From contig JAPOQK010000095.1 in NCBI GenBank assembly GCA_026710795.1, forward strand, positions 62,001 to 126,000: a DNA stretch of 64,000 nucleotides. Direction: 5' to 3'. Origin of the DNA: Candidatus Poribacteria bacterium (GTDB lineage: Bacteria; Poribacteria; WGA-4E; WGA-3G). The notes below the pieces were generated by a model. It saw only the letters and a program-made list of their open reading frames with translations, was not told where the DNA came from and made no database searches. The translations under genes and the position numbers were made by a program. This document shows positions 13,314 to 38,698 of this stretch, one piece after another. Numbering within the stretch: position 1 is the stretch's first letter; each line of letters starts with the position of its first letter.

Positions 13314-13504
13314 TTATACCATTTCTAATAAATAAAGTGTCATTTGCTGAGGACTACTTGTAGGATCGACCCGGTGAATGCCTTAATGGCATTCATACCG
13401 TTGATTTACTGGTCGCGACCGGGAGGTCGCTCCTACAGAAGAAAGATTTCCAATCATTAACAATGGTTGAATCCAGTAATGGGACAATATTAGAATTGGT
13501 ATAA
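13314..13504. mobile_element. MITE-like element, copy A (17-bp terminal inverted repeats)
   Basis: The ends TTATACCATTTCTAATA (13314-13330) and the complement of TTATACCAATTCTAATA (13488-13504) match at 16 of 17 positions. The 191-bp element has no coding capacity. Its centre holds GGTCGCGACCGGGAGGTCGCTCCTAC and a nested hairpin at about 13371-13399. A second copy in the opposite orientation lies at 19320-19477, with flanking words such as CAGTAATGGGACAATA and GCTGAGGACTACTTGTA conserved. No transposase is present, so mobilisation would be in trans. Confidence 0.7.
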
Positions 13505-16715: not shown

Positions 16716-17273
16716 ATGAAAAAAACAACAGGTCTACTTTTTGTTCTATTATGCGCACTTAGTATTTTCTGGGGATGTAATACAAGATCACGTGAACCTA
16801 TATCAAGTTCCGGCGTTAAACCTACTCAAGTAGATGTACCAGTAAATGCCGAAGGTATAACTGTAGAACAGCAGAATATCAGAGATCGCCTACTGATGGA
16901 CAACGAAATCGGAAGCATAAAACACCTATACGTAATTTCCGCATATAGTGGACAAACAATTATTTATTCCACAGTACGGGGAAAGGTGACAAGCAGTAGT
17001 AAGCGATTGTCACCGACATCCGTTGTCGTTGGAGCAAGTGGTGAATATAGACGACCAGGATTTTCCACTGGACAAGACAAGATGGTTACGGATGAAGTCG
17101 TACAAGATGATGGAACTTACGGATCATCTATCCCGTATCTATATTGGTGGGATACAAAAGGGGTCTACCATCAGCACTATGTCTCTGGTGGACAAATAAT
17201 CCATGTCTCTAATGAACCCGTCAGCGTAAAAGGGGTTGTCATAAATATGGCAATTGAAGAATCATCAGAGTAA
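16716..17273 (+). CDS. Predicted lipoprotein, unknown function
   Basis: The 185-residue product has a lipoprotein signal (MKKTTGLLFVLLCALSIFWGC) ending in W-G-C. The body includes a stretch resembling a small beta barrel: TIIYSTVRGKVTSSSKRLSPTS, a Tyr-rich segment and a Val-rich end. The start at 16716 follows AGGAGGAAT by about 8 nt, so the longer frame from 16644 was rejected. It lies between another lipoprotein gene and a WD40 gene. No family was recognised. Confidence 0.72.
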   Translation: MKKTTGLLFVLLCALSIFWGCNTRSREPISSSGVKPTQVDVPVNAEGITVEQQNIRDRLLMDNEIGSIKHLYVISAYSGQTIIYSTVRGKVTSSSKRLSPTSVVVGASGEYRRPGFSTGQDKMVTDEVVQDDGTYGSSIPYLYWWDTKGVYHQHYVSGGQIIHVSNEPVSVKGVVINMAIEESSE

Positions 17274-17312
17274 GTCTACCACTCAAACTCTACATTTCTT
17301 AAGGAATTAGGA

Positions 17313-19313
17313 ATGTCAACCGATGCTCAAAATCAAAATACTGTTTCTAAATTGACCACTCAAACAAATACATCCCAAGACTACACACAGTGGCACCTAC
17401 CCAACGGTGCCATTGCACGTTTAGGAAAAGGTGAAGTCAACGATATAAAATTCTCTCCAGACGGTTCACTCTTAGCTGCAGCAACCGCAATTGGAATTTG
17501 GCTTTACGATGCATATACCGGTAAAGAAATCACAATGTTACCACATCCCAAAAAAGTTAACACACTCGCTTTTTCAAACGATGGCAAAACACTCGCAGCC
17601 GGTGAATCCGAGTACCAAGGATATGAAAGTGCTGTCAGGTTATGGGACCTTGGAACAAAGAAAGTTATTTCGTCTGTAATAGGAAATTGGAAGGAGATTA
17701 AGGCGTTAGCATACACAGCAGATGGTAAGAATCTTGTTATTGCTGGCGGCAGTAAAGACTGGACTGAAGAAATTTGGACATGGAATCCTACAGCAGATAC
17801 ACATCAGCAAAACATTATAGATTTGTCCCATATGAAAAGTTTTCCAGGAACTACTTTGGCTCTATCTCAAAACGGACGTTTTCTTGCGAATGTCGTAAAA
17901 TCAAAGAATGATCCTAAATGGAAAATTGAAATGTGGGATGTCAACACAGGTCGACAGATATCTACATTGGACGATTCAGGGCTTGGATCCGTTTCAACGA
18001 TGGCATTTTCAACTGATGAAAAAACATTAGTTAAATCAGACGCTAGTGAAATTCAGTTTTGGGACATAGAAACCAGCAAATTAAGTTTCTATATAAACTC
18101 TCCAACTAATCTACATACCTTGACATATTCACCTGATGGCACCCACATTGCAACTGGCAGCCGTGATGGAATTGTACGTATGTGGAAAGTGCCTACTGAT
18201 GGGAATTCGATTTTGCAACGTGTCTGGAGTACTCTTTTAGGAAAACAGACAAAAATGTATTTTGGGCATGCAGAATCGTTTAGATTCAAAGCAATTACTA
18301 TCTCACCAGACAACAAAATGATTGCAAGTGCAAATACTGATGGAACTATCCGAACTTGGGATATAGATACCTCCACTGAGAATATTTCATTGACGCGACA
18401 TATTGGTAATGTAAAGACTATTGCATTCACCGAAAATAATAAACTCGCAAGCATCAGTCTGAATTACGGACAGATAATTGCAACTCTATGGAATACTTAC
18501 ACTGCCAAGGAACTCGCAAATGATATTATTGATGAAGGTTCTGGTAGAAATACAGTAGTCAGACTATCACCAAACGGAAGCATATTTGCAACAGAGAGTG
18601 CAAACGAATCAGTTCAGTTATGGGATGTAACTACAAATCGTTTTATATCTCTCTTGAAATCGAAAAGGGAGGATACCGTTCCGAGAAATGCTTTTGAGCG
18701 AACATTGGTGTTTTCTCCTGATAACACAATATTTGCGAGAGGACACTCCGACGGACCAATTCAGTTGTGGGATCTCACCAATCGACACTCTTTGCCAACA
18801 CTTGAAGGACACACTGGAAACTGCTATAGGTTAGTCTTTGCACCAGACAGCAAAATATTAGCAAGTACGAATTCAGACGCTACAACGCGCCTATGGGATG
18901 TTACCACAAACACCGAAATCGCACAATTTGAGGGAGAGGAAAGACGTACATTGGCGTTAGCATTCTCCCCAGATGGAAAAACATTCGCAAACGGAGTTAA
19001 TATCTATCGACTTGATGACAAAACCGATAGTTATGTTCACTTGTATCGTCTACAGAATGTTAAATATAATATAACCAATGGATTAACATTTTCACCAGAT
19101 GCAAGGTTCCTTATAGCCAGCGGATTTGGAAAAATTGAGATTTGGAATGCAACAAATGGCGAATATCTCTCTAAAATAAATGCACATACTGGTTGGATAG
19201 AAGAAATATTGTTCTCACCGGATGGCACAATACTTGCCAGTCGTAGCGAATATGATGGCACAATACTCCTCTGGGACTGGGAAAAAATCAAACCTAACAC
19301 CAATTCAAAATAA
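17313..19313 (+). CDS. WD40 repeat protein with 14 blades
   Basis: The 666-residue product is built almost entirely of WD40 repeats. Fourteen blade ends can be counted, among them IWLYDAYTG, VRLWDLGTK, IEMWDVNTG, IQFWDIETS, IRTWDIDTS, VQLWDVTTN, TRLWDVTTN, IEIWNATNG and ILLWDW. Most blades also carry the FSPDG turn. Fourteen fits two seven-bladed propellers in tandem. There is no signal peptide, so the protein is probably a cytoplasmic scaffold. AAGGA precedes the start, and the gene lies 39 nt after two lipoprotein genes. It ends 6 nt before a MITE-like element. Confidence 0.85.
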   Translation: MSTDAQNQNTVSKLTTQTNTSQDYTQWHLPNGAIARLGKGEVNDIKFSPDGSLLAAATAIGIWLYDAYTGKEITMLPHPKKVNTLAFSNDGKTLAAGESEYQGYESAVRLWDLGTKKVISSVIGNWKEIKALAYTADGKNLVIAGGSKDWTEEIWTWNPTADTHQQNIIDLSHMKSFPGTTLALSQNGRFLANVVKSKNDPKWKIEMWDVNTGRQISTLDDSGLGSVSTMAFSTDEKTLVKSDASEIQFWDIETSKLSFYINSPTNLHTLTYSPDGTHIATGSRDGIVRMWKVPTDGNSILQRVWSTLLGKQTKMYFGHAESFRFKAITISPDNKMIASANTDGTIRTWDIDTSTENISLTRHIGNVKTIAFTENNKLASISLNYGQIIATLWNTYTAKELANDIIDEGSGRNTVVRLSPNGSIFATESANESVQLWDVTTNRFISLLKSKREDTVPRNAFERTLVFSPDNTIFARGHSDGPIQLWDLTNRHSLPTLEGHTGNCYRLVFAPDSKILASTNSDATTRLWDVTTNTEIAQFEGEERRTLALAFSPDGKTFANGVNIYRLDDKTDSYVHLYRLQNVKYNITNGLTFSPDARFLIASGFGKIEIWNATNGEYLSKINAHTGWIEEILFSPDGTILASRSEYDGTILLWDWEKIKPNTNSK

Positions 19314-19319
19314 TGATTA

Positions 19320-19477
19320 TTATACCAATTCTAATATTTATTGTCCCATTACTGGATTCAAACATTGTTATTGATTGGAAATCTTTCTTCTGTAGGAGCG
19401 ACCTCCTGGTCGCGACCGGGAGGTCGCTCCTACAAGTAGTCCTCAGCAATGGCACTTTATTTATTAGAATGGTATTA
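19320..19477. mobile_element. MITE-like element, copy B
   Basis: This is the inverted copy of the element at 13314-13504. The left end TTATACCAATTCTAATA is at 19320-19336 and the right end, complement of TAATACCATTCTAATA, is at about 19462-19477. The centre (about 19397-19433) forms a strong hairpin from GGAGCGACCTCC and GGGAGGTCGCTCC. It lacks the nested 35-bp hairpin of copy A. It begins 6 nt after the WD40 stop, so its hairpin could serve as that gene's terminator. Confidence 0.68.
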
Positions 19478-19484
19478 TATTCTG

Positions 19485-19545
19485 TAGGAGCGACCTCCGG
19501 GTCGCGATTTCTTATCCTGAAAATCTTGTAATCCTGGTTCAGACA
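19485..19545. repeat. GTAGGAGCGACC fragment and CTGAAAATC/TTCAGACA repeat
   Basis: A partial GTAGGAGCGACCTCCGGGTCGCG lies at about 19484-19506. It is followed by TTATCCTGAAAATCTTG and ATCCTGGTTCAGACAAATA up to about 19547. The latter words recur near 5826-5845 and 22760-22785. CTGAA and TTCAG can pair as a short stem. Confidence 0.5.
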
Positions 19546-19607
19546 AATACAATTTAATATACGAATAAATACCAATATATATCCAATAAGACATTTCACT
19601 TTTTAAT

Positions 19608-19636
19608 TTGACACCCACAAAAAGATACTATATAAT
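19608..19636 (+). promoter_or_regulatory. Consensus sigma70 promoter (TTGACA-N17-TATAAT)
   Basis: TTGACA at 19608-19613 and TATAAT at 19631-19636 are exact consensus hexamers separated by exactly 17 nt. Transcription would start near 19643, about 324 nt before the M48 peptidase gene. No open frame with a ribosome site lies in between, so it drives either a long leader or a small RNA. Confidence 0.7.
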
Positions 19637-19642
19637 TAACGT

Positions 19643-19966
19643 ATGTTTAGAATATAGGATTATATCGGGGACACGAGTTGAGATACGTTAGAAGGAGGTA
19701 TAAATACAAATTCACCATGTGTGTAGCACTTGGTTTTTGTGTCTAAGGGACTGTATATGGGTTTTCTAAGTTTCATGTCTTACAAATTGTGAAGGTAGAT
19801 CAAGACAAGAAAAAGACCAAAAAGGAGCAAAAAAAAAAGCGAAATTCGCGTCACATTCCTTATCCTGACTGGATTCTTAACGTCACAGTGACGTGCAAAA
19901 GGTCACAATTTATAAGTGTCCACACCAAAATAACATAACTTCACACAAGGATACCTAACACACAAA
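19643..19966 (+). ncRNA. Candidate small RNA or long 5' leader of the M48 gene
   Basis: This stretch lies downstream of a consensus promoter and codes for nothing convincing. An AGAAGGAGG at about 19690 is not followed by a usable frame. It contains a purine-rich run ending in A10 (near 19830), the short hairpin GCGA-AAT-TCGC and the palindrome ACGTCAC-A-GTGACGT at 19880-19894. It was compared by eye with 6S RNA, tmRNA, SRP RNA and RNase P RNA and does not clearly match. It could simply be an untranslated leader. Confidence 0.3.
19880..19894. promoter_or_regulatory. Palindrome ACGTCAC-A-GTGACGT
   Basis: This 15-nt palindrome has 7-bp arms around one central base, 73 nt before the M48 peptidase start. 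Such symmetry suits a dimeric regulator, but no regulator is known. A related GGTCACAA lies 7 nt further on. Confidence 0.35.
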
Positions 19967-21250
19967 ATGGGACAAACAAGCATCGTCCTAATCGCAGGAC
20001 TAATCTTTCTGCTACGCTATCAAGTACCTGAAGAAGGTGTAGAATTTAACAACACGTATATTATTTTGTGGACATGTATACTTACATTCACGCCTATACT
20101 TCTCACATATCTTACAAAAAGATTTACAGCATTGCGAACCACGATTGTATTTGACATTCTTAGTTTAGTGACTTACATTGTTGTCCTTCACAAGTTCAAT
20201 TTACCAGCATTCATCAATAAACATCTATTCTTTTTGGAAATAGTGCACCACTCGCGTGAGATTTTTTCACTCTTTCCACTATTTATCGGATTAATCGGGA
20301 TTCGGGTTGCAATGCATGAAACACCACATACCAATCATGAAAAACGGAGAGAACACATAAACTTTCATTTCAGACATTTACTTCTCCCAATAATTCCATT
20401 ATTAGTCTGGAATGGAGTTTTAGACTTTAGCCACTTTTTCCCTGAAGAAGTTGCAGCACTATTTGTCATCATTATGATTATTCCTTTGCTTGCGTTCCCA
20501 TATATCCTCGCACCGTATATGATGCAATTTTTATGGAAAACAAAACCGCTAACAGATACAATACTCATTAAAAAACTGGTTGAGTTGACAAAACGAAGCA
20601 AAATGAAGTTCCGAGATATTGCAGTATTGCAAACAGGGGATTTTGAGATAACTAATGCAGCTGTTGCAGGCATTTTACCGAGAAACAGACGAATCTTTCT
20701 AACAGATTCTCTCTTACGAAACTTTACGGACGAACAGATAGAGACAATTGTTGCACATGAAATCGGTCATATCCGACATAGACATCTACTGATATCCTGT
20801 TTCATTGTTTTCGGATATATACTAAGTTATGCGATCTTTTACCAATTAGTTGGAAAACCACTTATGTCGCTACTTGAAGGTTATCCAATTATTTCATCAA
20901 TTGTTACGCTGCTCTTTTTTGTATTCTATTTCAGGGTGTTCTTTAATTTTCTATCACGACGTTTTGAATATCAAGCTGATCTGTACGCGGCTGACCTAAC
21001 CAATAATCCTGAAGGATATAAATCAGCACTAAAGGACCTTGGATCGTATAGTGCATTTCCTAAACTGATTCGTTTAATAATTGAGTTGATAAATACGCAT
21101 CCATCCATTGATAGAAGAATAGAGTTTATTGATCAATCTATTAAGGATAATAACGCTATTCATAGATATAGAAAGTGCTTGCTTGAAGTAAAACTATTAT
21201 TCGCAATAATCCCAATTATGTTTGTTCTCATTTATCTGATAAACCTATAA
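19967..21250 (+). CDS. M48-family membrane zinc metallopeptidase
   Basis: The 427-residue product has the zinc motif HEIGH (IVAHEIGHIRHRH) with the downstream Glu ligand in RRFEYQADLYAADL. Several membrane helices precede and surround the catalytic segment. This is the layout of HtpX/Ste24-type peptidases, which cut membrane proteins from the cytoplasmic side in quality control. Length is greater than HtpX (about 290) and close to Ste24-like members. AAGGA lies about 17 nt upstream of the ATG, a long spacing. The gene appears monocistronic. Confidence 0.85.
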   Translation: MGQTSIVLIAGLIFLLRYQVPEEGVEFNNTYIILWTCILTFTPILLTYLTKRFTALRTTIVFDILSLVTYIVVLHKFNLPAFINKHLFFLEIVHHSREIFSLFPLFIGLIGIRVAMHETPHTNHEKRREHINFHFRHLLLPIIPLLVWNGVLDFSHFFPEEVAALFVIIMIIPLLAFPYILAPYMMQFLWKTKPLTDTILIKKLVELTKRSKMKFRDIAVLQTGDFEITNAAVAGILPRNRRIFLTDSLLRNFTDEQIETIVAHEIGHIRHRHLLISCFIVFGYILSYAIFYQLVGKPLMSLLEGYPIISSIVTLLFFVFYFRVFFNFLSRRFEYQADLYAADLTNNPEGYKSALKDLGSYSAFPKLIRLIIELINTHPSIDRRIEFIDQSIKDNNAIHRYRKCLLEVKLLFAIIPIMFVLIYLINL

Positions 21251-21312
21251 AATACAGAATCATTTACCTTATCTGTTTGATTGTTATATGGTTACCCAGT
21301 GGAGAGAAATAC

Positions 21313-21462
21313 ATAGAACGTATGTGTTAATCATAGACAAGCCCCAGCGGGGCGATAGATGTATAGAACGTATGTGTTAATCATAGACAAGCCCCAGCGG
21401 GGTGACAGGTATATAGAACGTATGTGTTAATCATAGATAAGCCCAGCGGGGCGACAGGTGTA
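21313..21462. repeat. Three tandem 50-bp direct repeats with a GC hairpin
   Basis: ATAGAACGTATGTGTTAATC begins at 21313, 21363 and 21413, exactly 50 bp apart. Each unit continues with ATAGACAAGCCCCAGCGGGG, where GCCCC and GGGGC can form a stem around AG. The third unit has lost a C. There are no spacers, so this is not a CRISPR array. It occupies most of the gap between the M48 and oxidoreductase genes. Confidence 0.8.
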
Positions 21463-21564
21463 TATTTACTATCTCATTGAATGTAAGATGTTTGACATAA
21501 CTAACTAACAATACTAACACTCTCTAAATAGTCTAAAGTTAAGTATTTATTGAAAGGACAAACC

Positions 21565-22644
21565 ATGAGTCAAAAGATATACCGGGCAGCAGCAATCGGA
21601 CATACGGGTGCTGGAAACTACGGACACGGATTGCATACTGCCTACAAAGATATAGAAAACGTCGAATTTATTGCCATATCCGACCCTGATGAAGCGGGAA
21701 GAAAAAAGGCTGTAGAAGAATCAGATGCAGCACGCAGCTATGCTGATTATCACGAGATGTTGGAGAAGGAGGAATTAGACATAGTAAGTGTCTGTCCGCG
21801 TTGGGTAACAGAACATCTTGAGATGGTAACTGCCTGTCTTGAAGCAGGATGTTCTGTCTACTGTGAAAAACCTATGACAGGTTCACTTGCAGAGGGAGAT
21901 AAAATCGTTGAAACTGCAAAAGCACACGGATTGAAGGTCGCAGTTGCACATCAAGCGGTATACCTCCCCGCAACACATACAATCAGACAGATGCTTAAGG
22001 ACGGTAAAATCGGCACTATCCAATCCATCCATGCCAGCGGTAAACAGGACAGACGCGGCGGTGGTGAAGATATGATTGTACTTGGAACACACCTATTCAA
22101 TATGATGCGTTTCTTCGTTGGAGATGTAGATTGGATGCAGTCCCACGTTACCAAGGACGGGGAAGAGGTGGCTTACGGGGATCACCATCAACCAACCGAA
22201 CCCGTCGGTCCTGTTGCAGGTGATTGCATTAATAGTTACTTCGCTTTCAAGAACGGTGTATCAGGTTTCTTTGAATCACGCAAAGATCAGGCTGGTTCTG
22301 GTAGATACGGCATGGAGATTGTTGGTAGTGAAGGCACTTTTTCACTTCGTGGAGATGTCGCCAATCGACTGATGGTATATCCGTATCCGGTTTTAGTTCC
22401 ATCAAATTCACAACAGGAATGGGAAGCGATTGACCTTGACCAAACACCTTTCTTTAAAGGCAACGAACTCGCTATTCTGGATCTGATTGACGCAATTGAA
22501 AATGACCGCAAACCGATTTCCGCAGCAGAAGACGCTGTCGGTGCGTTGGAGATGATTCTCGGTGCTTATGAATCACAACTCACAGGTAACCGTGTTCCAT
22601 TCCCAATTGCAAACCGAGAACATCCTTTAAGCCGTGGCATCTAA
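21565..22644 (+). CDS. Gfo/Idh/MocA family NAD(P)-dependent oxidoreductase
   Basis: The 359-residue product has an N-terminal Rossmann domain (AAAIGHTGAGNYG, then AISDPD) and the family EKP motif at 101-103 containing the catalytic Lys. The C-terminal domain includes LGTHLFNMMRFF with the expected active-site His. Members oxidise or reduce sugars, inositols and related compounds; the substrate cannot be read. The start at 21565 follows AAAGGACA; an upstream TTG at 21550 is less likely. The gene stands alone between a repeat array and a convergent gene. Confidence 0.88.
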   Translation: MSQKIYRAAAIGHTGAGNYGHGLHTAYKDIENVEFIAISDPDEAGRKKAVEESDAARSYADYHEMLEKEELDIVSVCPRWVTEHLEMVTACLEAGCSVYCEKPMTGSLAEGDKIVETAKAHGLKVAVAHQAVYLPATHTIRQMLKDGKIGTIQSIHASGKQDRRGGGEDMIVLGTHLFNMMRFFVGDVDWMQSHVTKDGEEVAYGDHHQPTEPVGPVAGDCINSYFAFKNGVSGFFESRKDQAGSGRYGMEIVGSEGTFSLRGDVANRLMVYPYPVLVPSNSQQEWEAIDLDQTPFFKGNELAILDLIDAIENDRKPISAAEDAVGALEMILGAYESQLTGNRVPFPIANREHPLSRGI

Positions 22645-37456: not shown

Positions 37457-38698
37457 TCATTCTGTAAGTTTATAAAGGGACTTGGCAATTGTATCGCATG
37501 CAAACGGGCGACCTAAGTTCTCGGATGCAGTCCTCATCTGTTGATATGTTTCTTCTTCTGTTAAAATATTAAATAATTGTTCTACAAGGACATCGGGTGT
37601 AAACATATCCTGTTCAAGAACCACGGCAGCACCAGCATTTGCTACTGATTTCGCATTGGTTACCTGGTTATTTCCTATTGCAGCGGGTAATGGGATGAAG
37701 ATTGCCGGGATGCCACAAGCGGTTACTTCAGATACCGTCATACCGCCAGCTCTACAAATCATTACATCTGTAATACTATATATTTCTTCTACAGTATCAA
37801 AAAAAGATTGAACATGGTGTGGAATTCCATGTTGATCATACGCATCTCGTACTTCCTCAACTTGGGATTTACCAGTTTGATGTACAATTTGGATTTTACA
37901 CGAATATGAATTATTAACTGGAACTATACTGTCTCTATTCATTTTCCGCTCAATAGATGTATCAAACATATTTATTAATGGACATGCATCAATCATCGCT
38001 TCATTTATGGCACGTGCACCTTGACTACCTCCCATAACAAAAACCGTTTTACGATATGGAGATAGGTTGTATTTCTTGTAAGTCTCATCATTCCGCGGGT
38101 GATCTGTTATACCAGGACGAATCGGGTTTCCTGTTATCTGAATAATATGCTCAGGGAATCGTTGGGTATTTGGTGGTAATGCAAGATACGCTGCCTTTGC
38201 CCAACGGGCAAGAATACTGTTCGTCAAACCTGGTGAAACATTTTGTTCCTGAATTGCTATCGGAATATCCATTAACCAAGCAGCAAAAAGAACGGGTCCT
38301 GATACATATCCTCCTGTTCCGATAACAACATCGGGTTTTAATTCCTTCAAATATTTTAACGACTGCATCACTCCCTGACAAACTTTTATTATAACAGTGA
38401 TCCACTTCAATGTCAAGCTACGTGGGAATCCTTCTACGGCAATAGGTAGAAAATGGAAACCTTGTTGTGGAACAAGTGTTGATTCTAATCGGTCGTGCCC
38501 ACCTATAAAAACAAGGTCTATCTCTGGGTAGAGACGTTGAAGGGCTTGGGCAATACCAACGGCAGGATAGATGTGTCCACCTGTACCACCTCCGGCAAAT
38601 ATGAACCGTTTCACTTGTATTTTGCTATTTCTATTTTTATTAAGAACGTCTTGAAGTTTCTGTTGTGTATTTTGATTATTCACATCAACTAATATCAC
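37457..38698 (-). CDS. murG: UDP-GlcNAc transferase MurG
   Basis: The 413-residue product has the GGGTGGHIYPA motif, the VIGTGGYVSGPVLFAA segment and VMGGSQGARAINE, all MurG hallmarks. It transfers GlcNAc to lipid I at the inner membrane face to give lipid II. It is about 50 residues longer than E. coli MurG, from an N-terminal extension of about 30 residues and a Ser/Asn-rich insert (about 250-275). The GTG start at 38698 lacks a clear ribosome site; a start close to VKRFIFAGGG is also possible. Confidence 0.95.
   Translation of the reverse strand: MILVDVNNQNTQQKLQDVLNKNRNSKIQVKRFIFAGGGTGGHIYPAVGIAQALQRLYPEIDLVFIGGHDRLESTLVPQQGFHFLPIAVEGFPRSLTLKWITVIIKVCQGVMQSLKYLKELKPDVVIGTGGYVSGPVLFAAWLMDIPIAIQEQNVSPGLTNSILARWAKAAYLALPPNTQRFPEHIIQITGNPIRPGITDHPRNDETYKKYNLSPYRKTVFVMGGSQGARAINEAMIDACPLINMFDTSIERKMNRDSIVPVNNSYSCKIQIVHQTGKSQVEEVRDAYDQHGIPHHVQSFFDTVEEIYSITDVMICRAGGMTVSEVTACGIPAIFIPLPAAIGNNQVTNAKSVANAGAAVVLEQDMFTPDVLVEQLFNILTEEETYQQMRTASENLGRPFACDTIAKSLYKLTE

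Follow-up and report, generated by a model that had tools for sequence, protein, structure and literature searches.

The M48 locus and its promoter

Within the window (the whole 64,000-nt stretch of DNA analysed here), a WD40-repeat-like gene is followed on the plus strand by a gene that the earlier note had named an M48-type peptidase, and whose translation carries a HEIGH motif, which we take to be in keeping with that name (Table 1). Between the two lies a sigma70 promoter whose hexamers, TTGACA (19608-19613) and TATAAT (19631-19636), are both exact consensus at a spacing of 17 nt, and behind it, as had been described, 330 nt without a credible gene separate TATAAT from the M48 start (19967). 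A promoter scan of positions 17000-22000 returned 21 promoter-like sites, this one being the sole 12/12 match, while the shuffled control for the same region gave 18.6 sites of at least 9/12. The rarity claimed for the promoter in the window also stands, with one further exact TTGACA-17-TATAAT among 100 listed places, on the minus strand at 38388-38416 (100388-100416 of contig C60), whose spacer is unlike that of the element described below. Across the 4.70-Mb genome the exact arrangement occurs at 107 places, compared with 1 for a reversed control pattern, so that perfect promoters, as a class, are not a matter of chance in this genome; at least 46 of the 107 belong to copies of a dispersed element.

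The A10 run and palindromes reported for the interval are likewise present, the first palindrome being GCGAAATTCGC at 19839-19849. We also observed inverted repeats of the TGTAGGAGCGACCTCC type at 19391-19434, 19480-19507 and 13409-13440, which are common in these intergenic regions. Beyond the M48 gene, at 21318-21465, a tandem repeat with a unit of about 58 bp (CGTATGTGTTAATCATAGACAAGCCCCAGCGGGG) was noticed by eye.

Table 1 Features of the M48 locus in the window, with the evidence for each
Feature	Position	Strand	Evidence
WD40-repeat-like gene, upstream	17313..19313	+	named by inspection
Left unit (L), with promoter and start of the presumed transcribed stretch	19530..19660	+	at least 41 own-genome matches; in 49/90 core copies examined
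Sigma70 promoter, exact consensus hexamers, 17-nt spacer	19608..19636	+	sequence inspection, promoter scan, conservation among copies
Middle unit (M), non-coding, common to type-A copies; different middles elsewhere	19661..19791	+	copy comparison
14-nt inverted repeat around R (arms 19779-19792 and 19903-19916)	19779..19916	+	inverted-repeat search
Right unit (R)	19792..19914	+	copy comparison
Core of R, about 93 nt, common to all copy classes	19819..19911	+	k-mer counts; alignment of 102 distinct copies
A10 run inside core	19829..19838	+	length differs among copies (alignment)
15-bp palindrome ACGTCACAGTGACGT	19880..19894	+	sequence inspection; variants in other copies
GTGAC/GTCAC stem of core (arms 19888-19892 and 19902-19906)	19888..19906	+	one of two alifold-predicted helices
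M48-type peptidase gene, downstream	19967..21250	+	ORF; match in 17/18 genus genomes, own included

A dispersed modular element that includes the site

What stands at this site is a single copy of a dispersed, promoter-bearing intergenic element, whose core is present about 92 times in the genome. An own-genome search with 19540-19966 gave at least 47 matches, and the matching was modular; a 31-mer from the core with up to 3 mismatches was found at 82 places and a 25-mer with up to 2 mismatches at 92, with 0 for the reversed control of each. The coordinates given in the earlier note were correct, but the unit itself runs from about 19530 to 19914, ending 52 nt before the M48 start codon.

Among the 90 R copies that we located in fetched own-genome loci, 49 have L upstream of R, and 22 of these (window included) are type-A copies, while in the other copies with L some 25-350 nt of other sequence joins L to R. 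Many copies without L are preceded instead by other sequence, containing a palindrome and a short frame; most of these lie at the ends of contigs, probably because the assembly was interrupted by repeats. In such copies (for example L036, L047 and L052) the palindrome varies on both arms together (GTTACC..GGTAAC vs. GATACC..GGTATC) upstream of the short frame MKFNDIHKQFAVKSFAKMMTRSEI, a combination that may perhaps represent a leader peptide or an operator. The short frame MKFNDIHKQF..., which runs into the core in many of these copies, was not called a gene because the frame beyond the R start differs among copies.

The element has no coding capacity. The only ORF of at least 40 aa in the interval is a 49-aa GTG frame (19789-19938), which could be placed in 21 of the 22 type-A copies (window included) and measures between 7 and 70 aa there, and a 9-codon ATG mini-ORF occurs in the window copy alone among the 22; we dropped a coding role for both, neither being kept in other copies. 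At locus L040 (2971-4060, C26), L and R enclose a gene of 241 aa that has a good Shine-Dalgarno sequence and stands directly behind a perfect promoter. The idea of a cargo-carrying cassette that this gene raised was abandoned because no second cargo case was seen.

The promoter is retained while surrounding DNA drifts

Mean column conservation, taken over the 21 type-A copies other than that of the window, is highest in the promoter hexamers (0.99 for the -35 and 0.98 for the -10), followed by 0.97 for core positions 19839-19874, 0.94 for M, 0.92 for the spacer and 0.88 for the sequence upstream. We then compared promoter retention with that of neighbouring positions, leaving out L091-L099, some of which had been fetched via the promoter pattern. 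All 12 hexamer bases are kept in 39 of 42 left-unit copies, related copies being treated as independent, where the divergence of 45 neighbouring bases predicts 12.9 (sd 2.7), and none of 5000 random 12-site sets of neighbouring positions reached 39 (maximum 33). Several neighbouring columns are invariant too, so the comparison is if anything conservative. Even among copies more than 15% diverged, 13 of 13 have a perfect promoter (0.87 expected).

Retention so far above the roughly 13 copies expected from drift argues that the promoter is under selection: it appears to be kept by natural selection while the surrounding DNA drifts, which is good evidence for transcription of the element, at present or until recently, to some benefit of host or element. 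Retention of the hexamers could serve the spread of the element itself and not the host.

Own-genome copies with 460 nt of upstream sequence have a 12/12 promoter in the forward direction in 45 of 64 cases (promoter-fetched loci included) and in the reverse direction in none, and the relatives' copies do so in 4 of 35 vs. 0. At a threshold of at least 10/12, the relatives' copies give 16/35 forward and 14/35 reverse, so that in these copies only the 12/12 threshold discriminates; many of their cores are without a good promoter.

Structure and terminator evidence for the core

The covariance search that the earlier note had proposed turned up no RNA family, Rfam 15 giving no match at gathering scores and none at E values up to 1, and the predicted fold of 19643-19966 is no more stable than shuffled sequences (z -0.17). 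On the core, alifold gave -7.1 vs. -0.07 (sd 0.27) for column shuffles with a covariation of about 0.01, so that conservation, not compensation, drives this energy. An xxGAC..GTCxx stem is found in 82/86 own and 15/16 relatives' copies, and in two of the relatives' copies (L116 and L117) it is changed on both arms (AGGAC..GTCCT). Overall, the structural evidence is thin.

A terminator-like end (loop up to 9) occurs in 31/86 own and 1/16 relatives' copies, and with only 31 of the 86 own copies showing it we rejected the core as a general intrinsic terminator. In the window, no terminator-like hairpin lies between the element and M48, and the sole promoter-like site between R and M48 is a 9/12 match overlapping the start codon. 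With the promoter intact across diverged copies, the interval non-coding and nothing terminator- or promoter-like of note before M48, the part of the earlier note that proposed a transcribed non-coding stretch here has indirect support.

One possible though rather unlikely reading is that the copies form a trans-acting small-RNA family, each being a small-RNA gene with the core as the regulatory part, acting on RNAs or a protein. Such genes would have their own promoter, seemingly kept by selection, and a core that is the best conserved part outside the promoter (0.97) and is common to copies with differing middles and upstream stretches; in 8 of the relatives' 35 copies the distance from a TTGACA promoter to the core downstream is fixed at 109-113 nt. 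The scarcity of terminator-like ends, missing from the window copy as well, argues against this, as do the practically nil covariation, the lack of an Rfam match and the absence of the core pattern from 11 of the 17 other genomes of the genus. That sequence is conserved more than structure in the core, which contains, in addition to the palindrome, three GTCACA half-sites spaced by about 32 and 20 bp, is what one would expect of a site for a DNA-binding protein, the promoter then serving for upkeep or being incidental; we consider this unlikely, as it leaves the independent conservation of the promoter unexplained. The core may act as part of an RNA, as a DNA site or as both.

Distribution across genomes and signs of mobility

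Poribacteria are uncultured, and many are sponge symbionts. The core pattern was found in 7 of 59 genomes (own included), all of them among the 18 of the genus, that is, in 6 of the 17 other genus genomes and in 0 of 41 outside it. Copy numbers were 92 in the own genome, 14 each in G002 and G014, 10 in G010, 3 in G004, 2 in G008 and 1 in G003. The named core matches (11 stretches) all came from Candidatus Poribacteria MAGs, and a scan of viral contigs for the core gave 0 matches, which suggests that the window is itself poribacterial.

The tandem of WD40 gene and M48 gene is also present in G014, G008, G001 and G002, and at the 19 other M48-family loci fetched from the genus nothing of L, M or R longer than 18 bases is present. 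The two closest M48 orthologues (82% identity) align with the window over the bases that precede the start codon, and in them about 34 other bases replace the element after a common TGGTTCAGACAA-like stretch. The M48 site is thus empty in relatives, through either a gain here or a loss in the two close relatives. At the tilS locus the element is present in the own genome only (0 of 7 relatives), and at the rplM locus R is found at the same place in 1 of 6 relatives (G014), with different sequence upstream of R, so not all copies are recent. Collectively, the three loci indicate that copies come and go, with some shared.

On the best reading, the element is mobile or formerly mobile. It has in common with MITEs its many dispersed copies, its lack of coding capacity and the element-free M48 and tilS sites in relatives. 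Speaking against a simple MITE, an inverted-repeat search found no terminal inverted repeats at the ends of the window copy, for which no transposase was found either. Inspection by eye of the junctions of this copy and of nine longer copies showed no target-site duplication, about 34 bp being replaced at the M48 site. Other copies do carry, inverted at both outer ends, a 16-bp motif A (AAAACTAAATAACCCT), which is found at the outer ends of many copies, but motif A is also present at places that have no element.

Most of the copies examined are intergenic, and the same element precedes unrelated genes at dozens of loci. Of 90 copies, 80 have the nearest downstream ORF on their own strand and 9 on the opposite strand, and 1 has none; the count of 80 is in part trivial, since 39 of the 80 lie in divergent gaps, where either orientation would give this result (for another 25 the upstream gene is not known). 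Tandem gaps alone give 16 same-strand vs. 4 opposite cases, some of the opposite ORFs looking spurious by eye. We rejected this orientation bias as proof of function, the divergent gaps being uninformative.

With many copies just 7-11% apart and specific to the lineage, the element might be seen as the inert remains of a recent burst of repeats, with its promoter yet to decay. We regard this as quite improbable: it is contradicted by the perfect promoters of the diverged copies, unless mutation otherwise spares the 12 sites, and gene conversion would homogenise the spacer too, yet the spacer varies. Least credible of all is a riboswitch-like or otherwise gene-specific leader of M48, one sense of the regulatory leader that the earlier note had proposed, since, even though the transcript would pass straight into M48 over the short terminator-free gap beyond R, the reading is contradicted by the 0 of 19 other M48-family loci and by the element's presence before unrelated genes, the lack of an RNA family match also being against it.

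Comparison with known dispersed repeats

Nearest in kind is QMITE1 of Coxiella burnetii, which is described as a MITE of 300-400 bp with about 50 copies and internal sigma70 promoters that is transcribed and a source of small RNA (PMC5896051), and which is thus likewise a dispersed element with a sigma70 promoter inside. QMITE1 has short direct repeats and commonly overlaps reading frames, whereas no terminal or direct repeats were found for the Poribacteria window copy, and the Poribacteria element is mostly intergenic and modular, with a shared core that is not the promoter (PMC5896051). Correia repeat enclosed elements (CREE) of Neisseria, described as 69-151 bp long with 26-bp inverted Correia repeats and 100-250 copies per genome (PMC5039591), are similar in copy number, intergenic location, restriction to one genus and possession of promoters, and they lie close to non-coding RNAs; they are defined by inverted repeats, which sets them apart from an element with none found at its window-copy ends (PMC5039591). 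The BRE of Betaproteobacteria, a mainly intergenic repeat of about 90 bp found via a small RNA, resembles the element in size and placement, but has at most 29 copies, is spread over several Betaproteobacteria and, in the sections of its report consulted, is described without a promoter as part (PMC3110155).

We therefore file the element as a promoter-bearing dispersed repeat that is a member of neither QMITE1 nor the Correia elements, differing from both in being modular, in the lack of terminal repeats at the window copy and in having a non-promoter core as one of its most constant parts. Among openly licensed PMC papers, we found none on such repeats or on small RNAs of Poribacteria.

Proposed working of the element

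The reading that we favour, and consider probable, is that of a genus-limited, mobile or formerly mobile promoter-bearing element that makes a non-coding RNA and that, at M48, amounts to an acquired promoter and leader. Judging from the sequence, sigma70 RNA polymerase would start near 19643, and the resulting non-coding RNA would be about 180-330 nt long, with the conserved core as its 3' part. At many loci the element is followed by more sequence and by a promoter that belongs to the host gene itself. At the M48 locus, where no terminator-like hairpin or second promoter was found before the gene, transcription most likely continues into M48, with the element probably serving as the gene's promoter and an untranslated leader of about 320 nt; in relatives the gene simply follows the WD40 gene.

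Motif A often lies 18-20 bp upstream of host -35 boxes

We collected 76 distinct motif A sites (up to 3 mismatches) in own-genome loci, and scored as promoters TTGACA with at most 1 change combined with a -10 of at least 4/6. A promoter begins 18-20 bp after motif A at 31 of the 76 sites, 8-10 bp after it at 4 and 28-29 bp after it at 3, with all other offsets to 80 bp giving 16; on the opposite side of motif A there are 10 promoters in all, 3 of them at 20 bp. The 18-20 bp spacing is seen at 18 of 39 sites with an element near and at 13 of 37 without one (at worst 9 of 33, four loci having been fetched for the spacing). Genome-wide, the exact motif A pattern gave 13 matches, mostly spaced 18-20, 10 or 29 bp (reversed control 0). 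The window copy is without motif A.

The motif's presence before promoters that lack an element weakens the idea that it is a terminal inverted repeat; it may represent an activator site or a placement rule. Motif A stands before the -35 boxes of many unrelated genes, such as those at L027, L022 and L021 and, in relatives, L172. A second motif, motif B (AAAACTTTACACACCC), forms inverted pairs around the core-bearing stretch in G002 loci L116, L141, L143, L145, L146 and L147, lies about 15-16 bp before TTGACA in some G002 loci, and abuts motif A in L146.

More tentatively than the reading favoured above, we suggest the possibility of a large family of short transcription units just upstream of the promoters of other, in many cases housekeeping, genes, which would have kept a strong promoter and a 3' core of about 93 nt with many different middles, and in which motif A would stand in helical phase with the host -35 (about 9, 19 and 29 bp), as though contact with RNA polymerase bound at the promoter, or with an activator, had placed or kept the units there. 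Gene-less promoters are usually dismissed, and the core and the phased motif are concrete sequences testable in a metatranscriptome. If true, such a family would constitute a genome-wide regulatory layer operating via upstream transcription or the core RNA.
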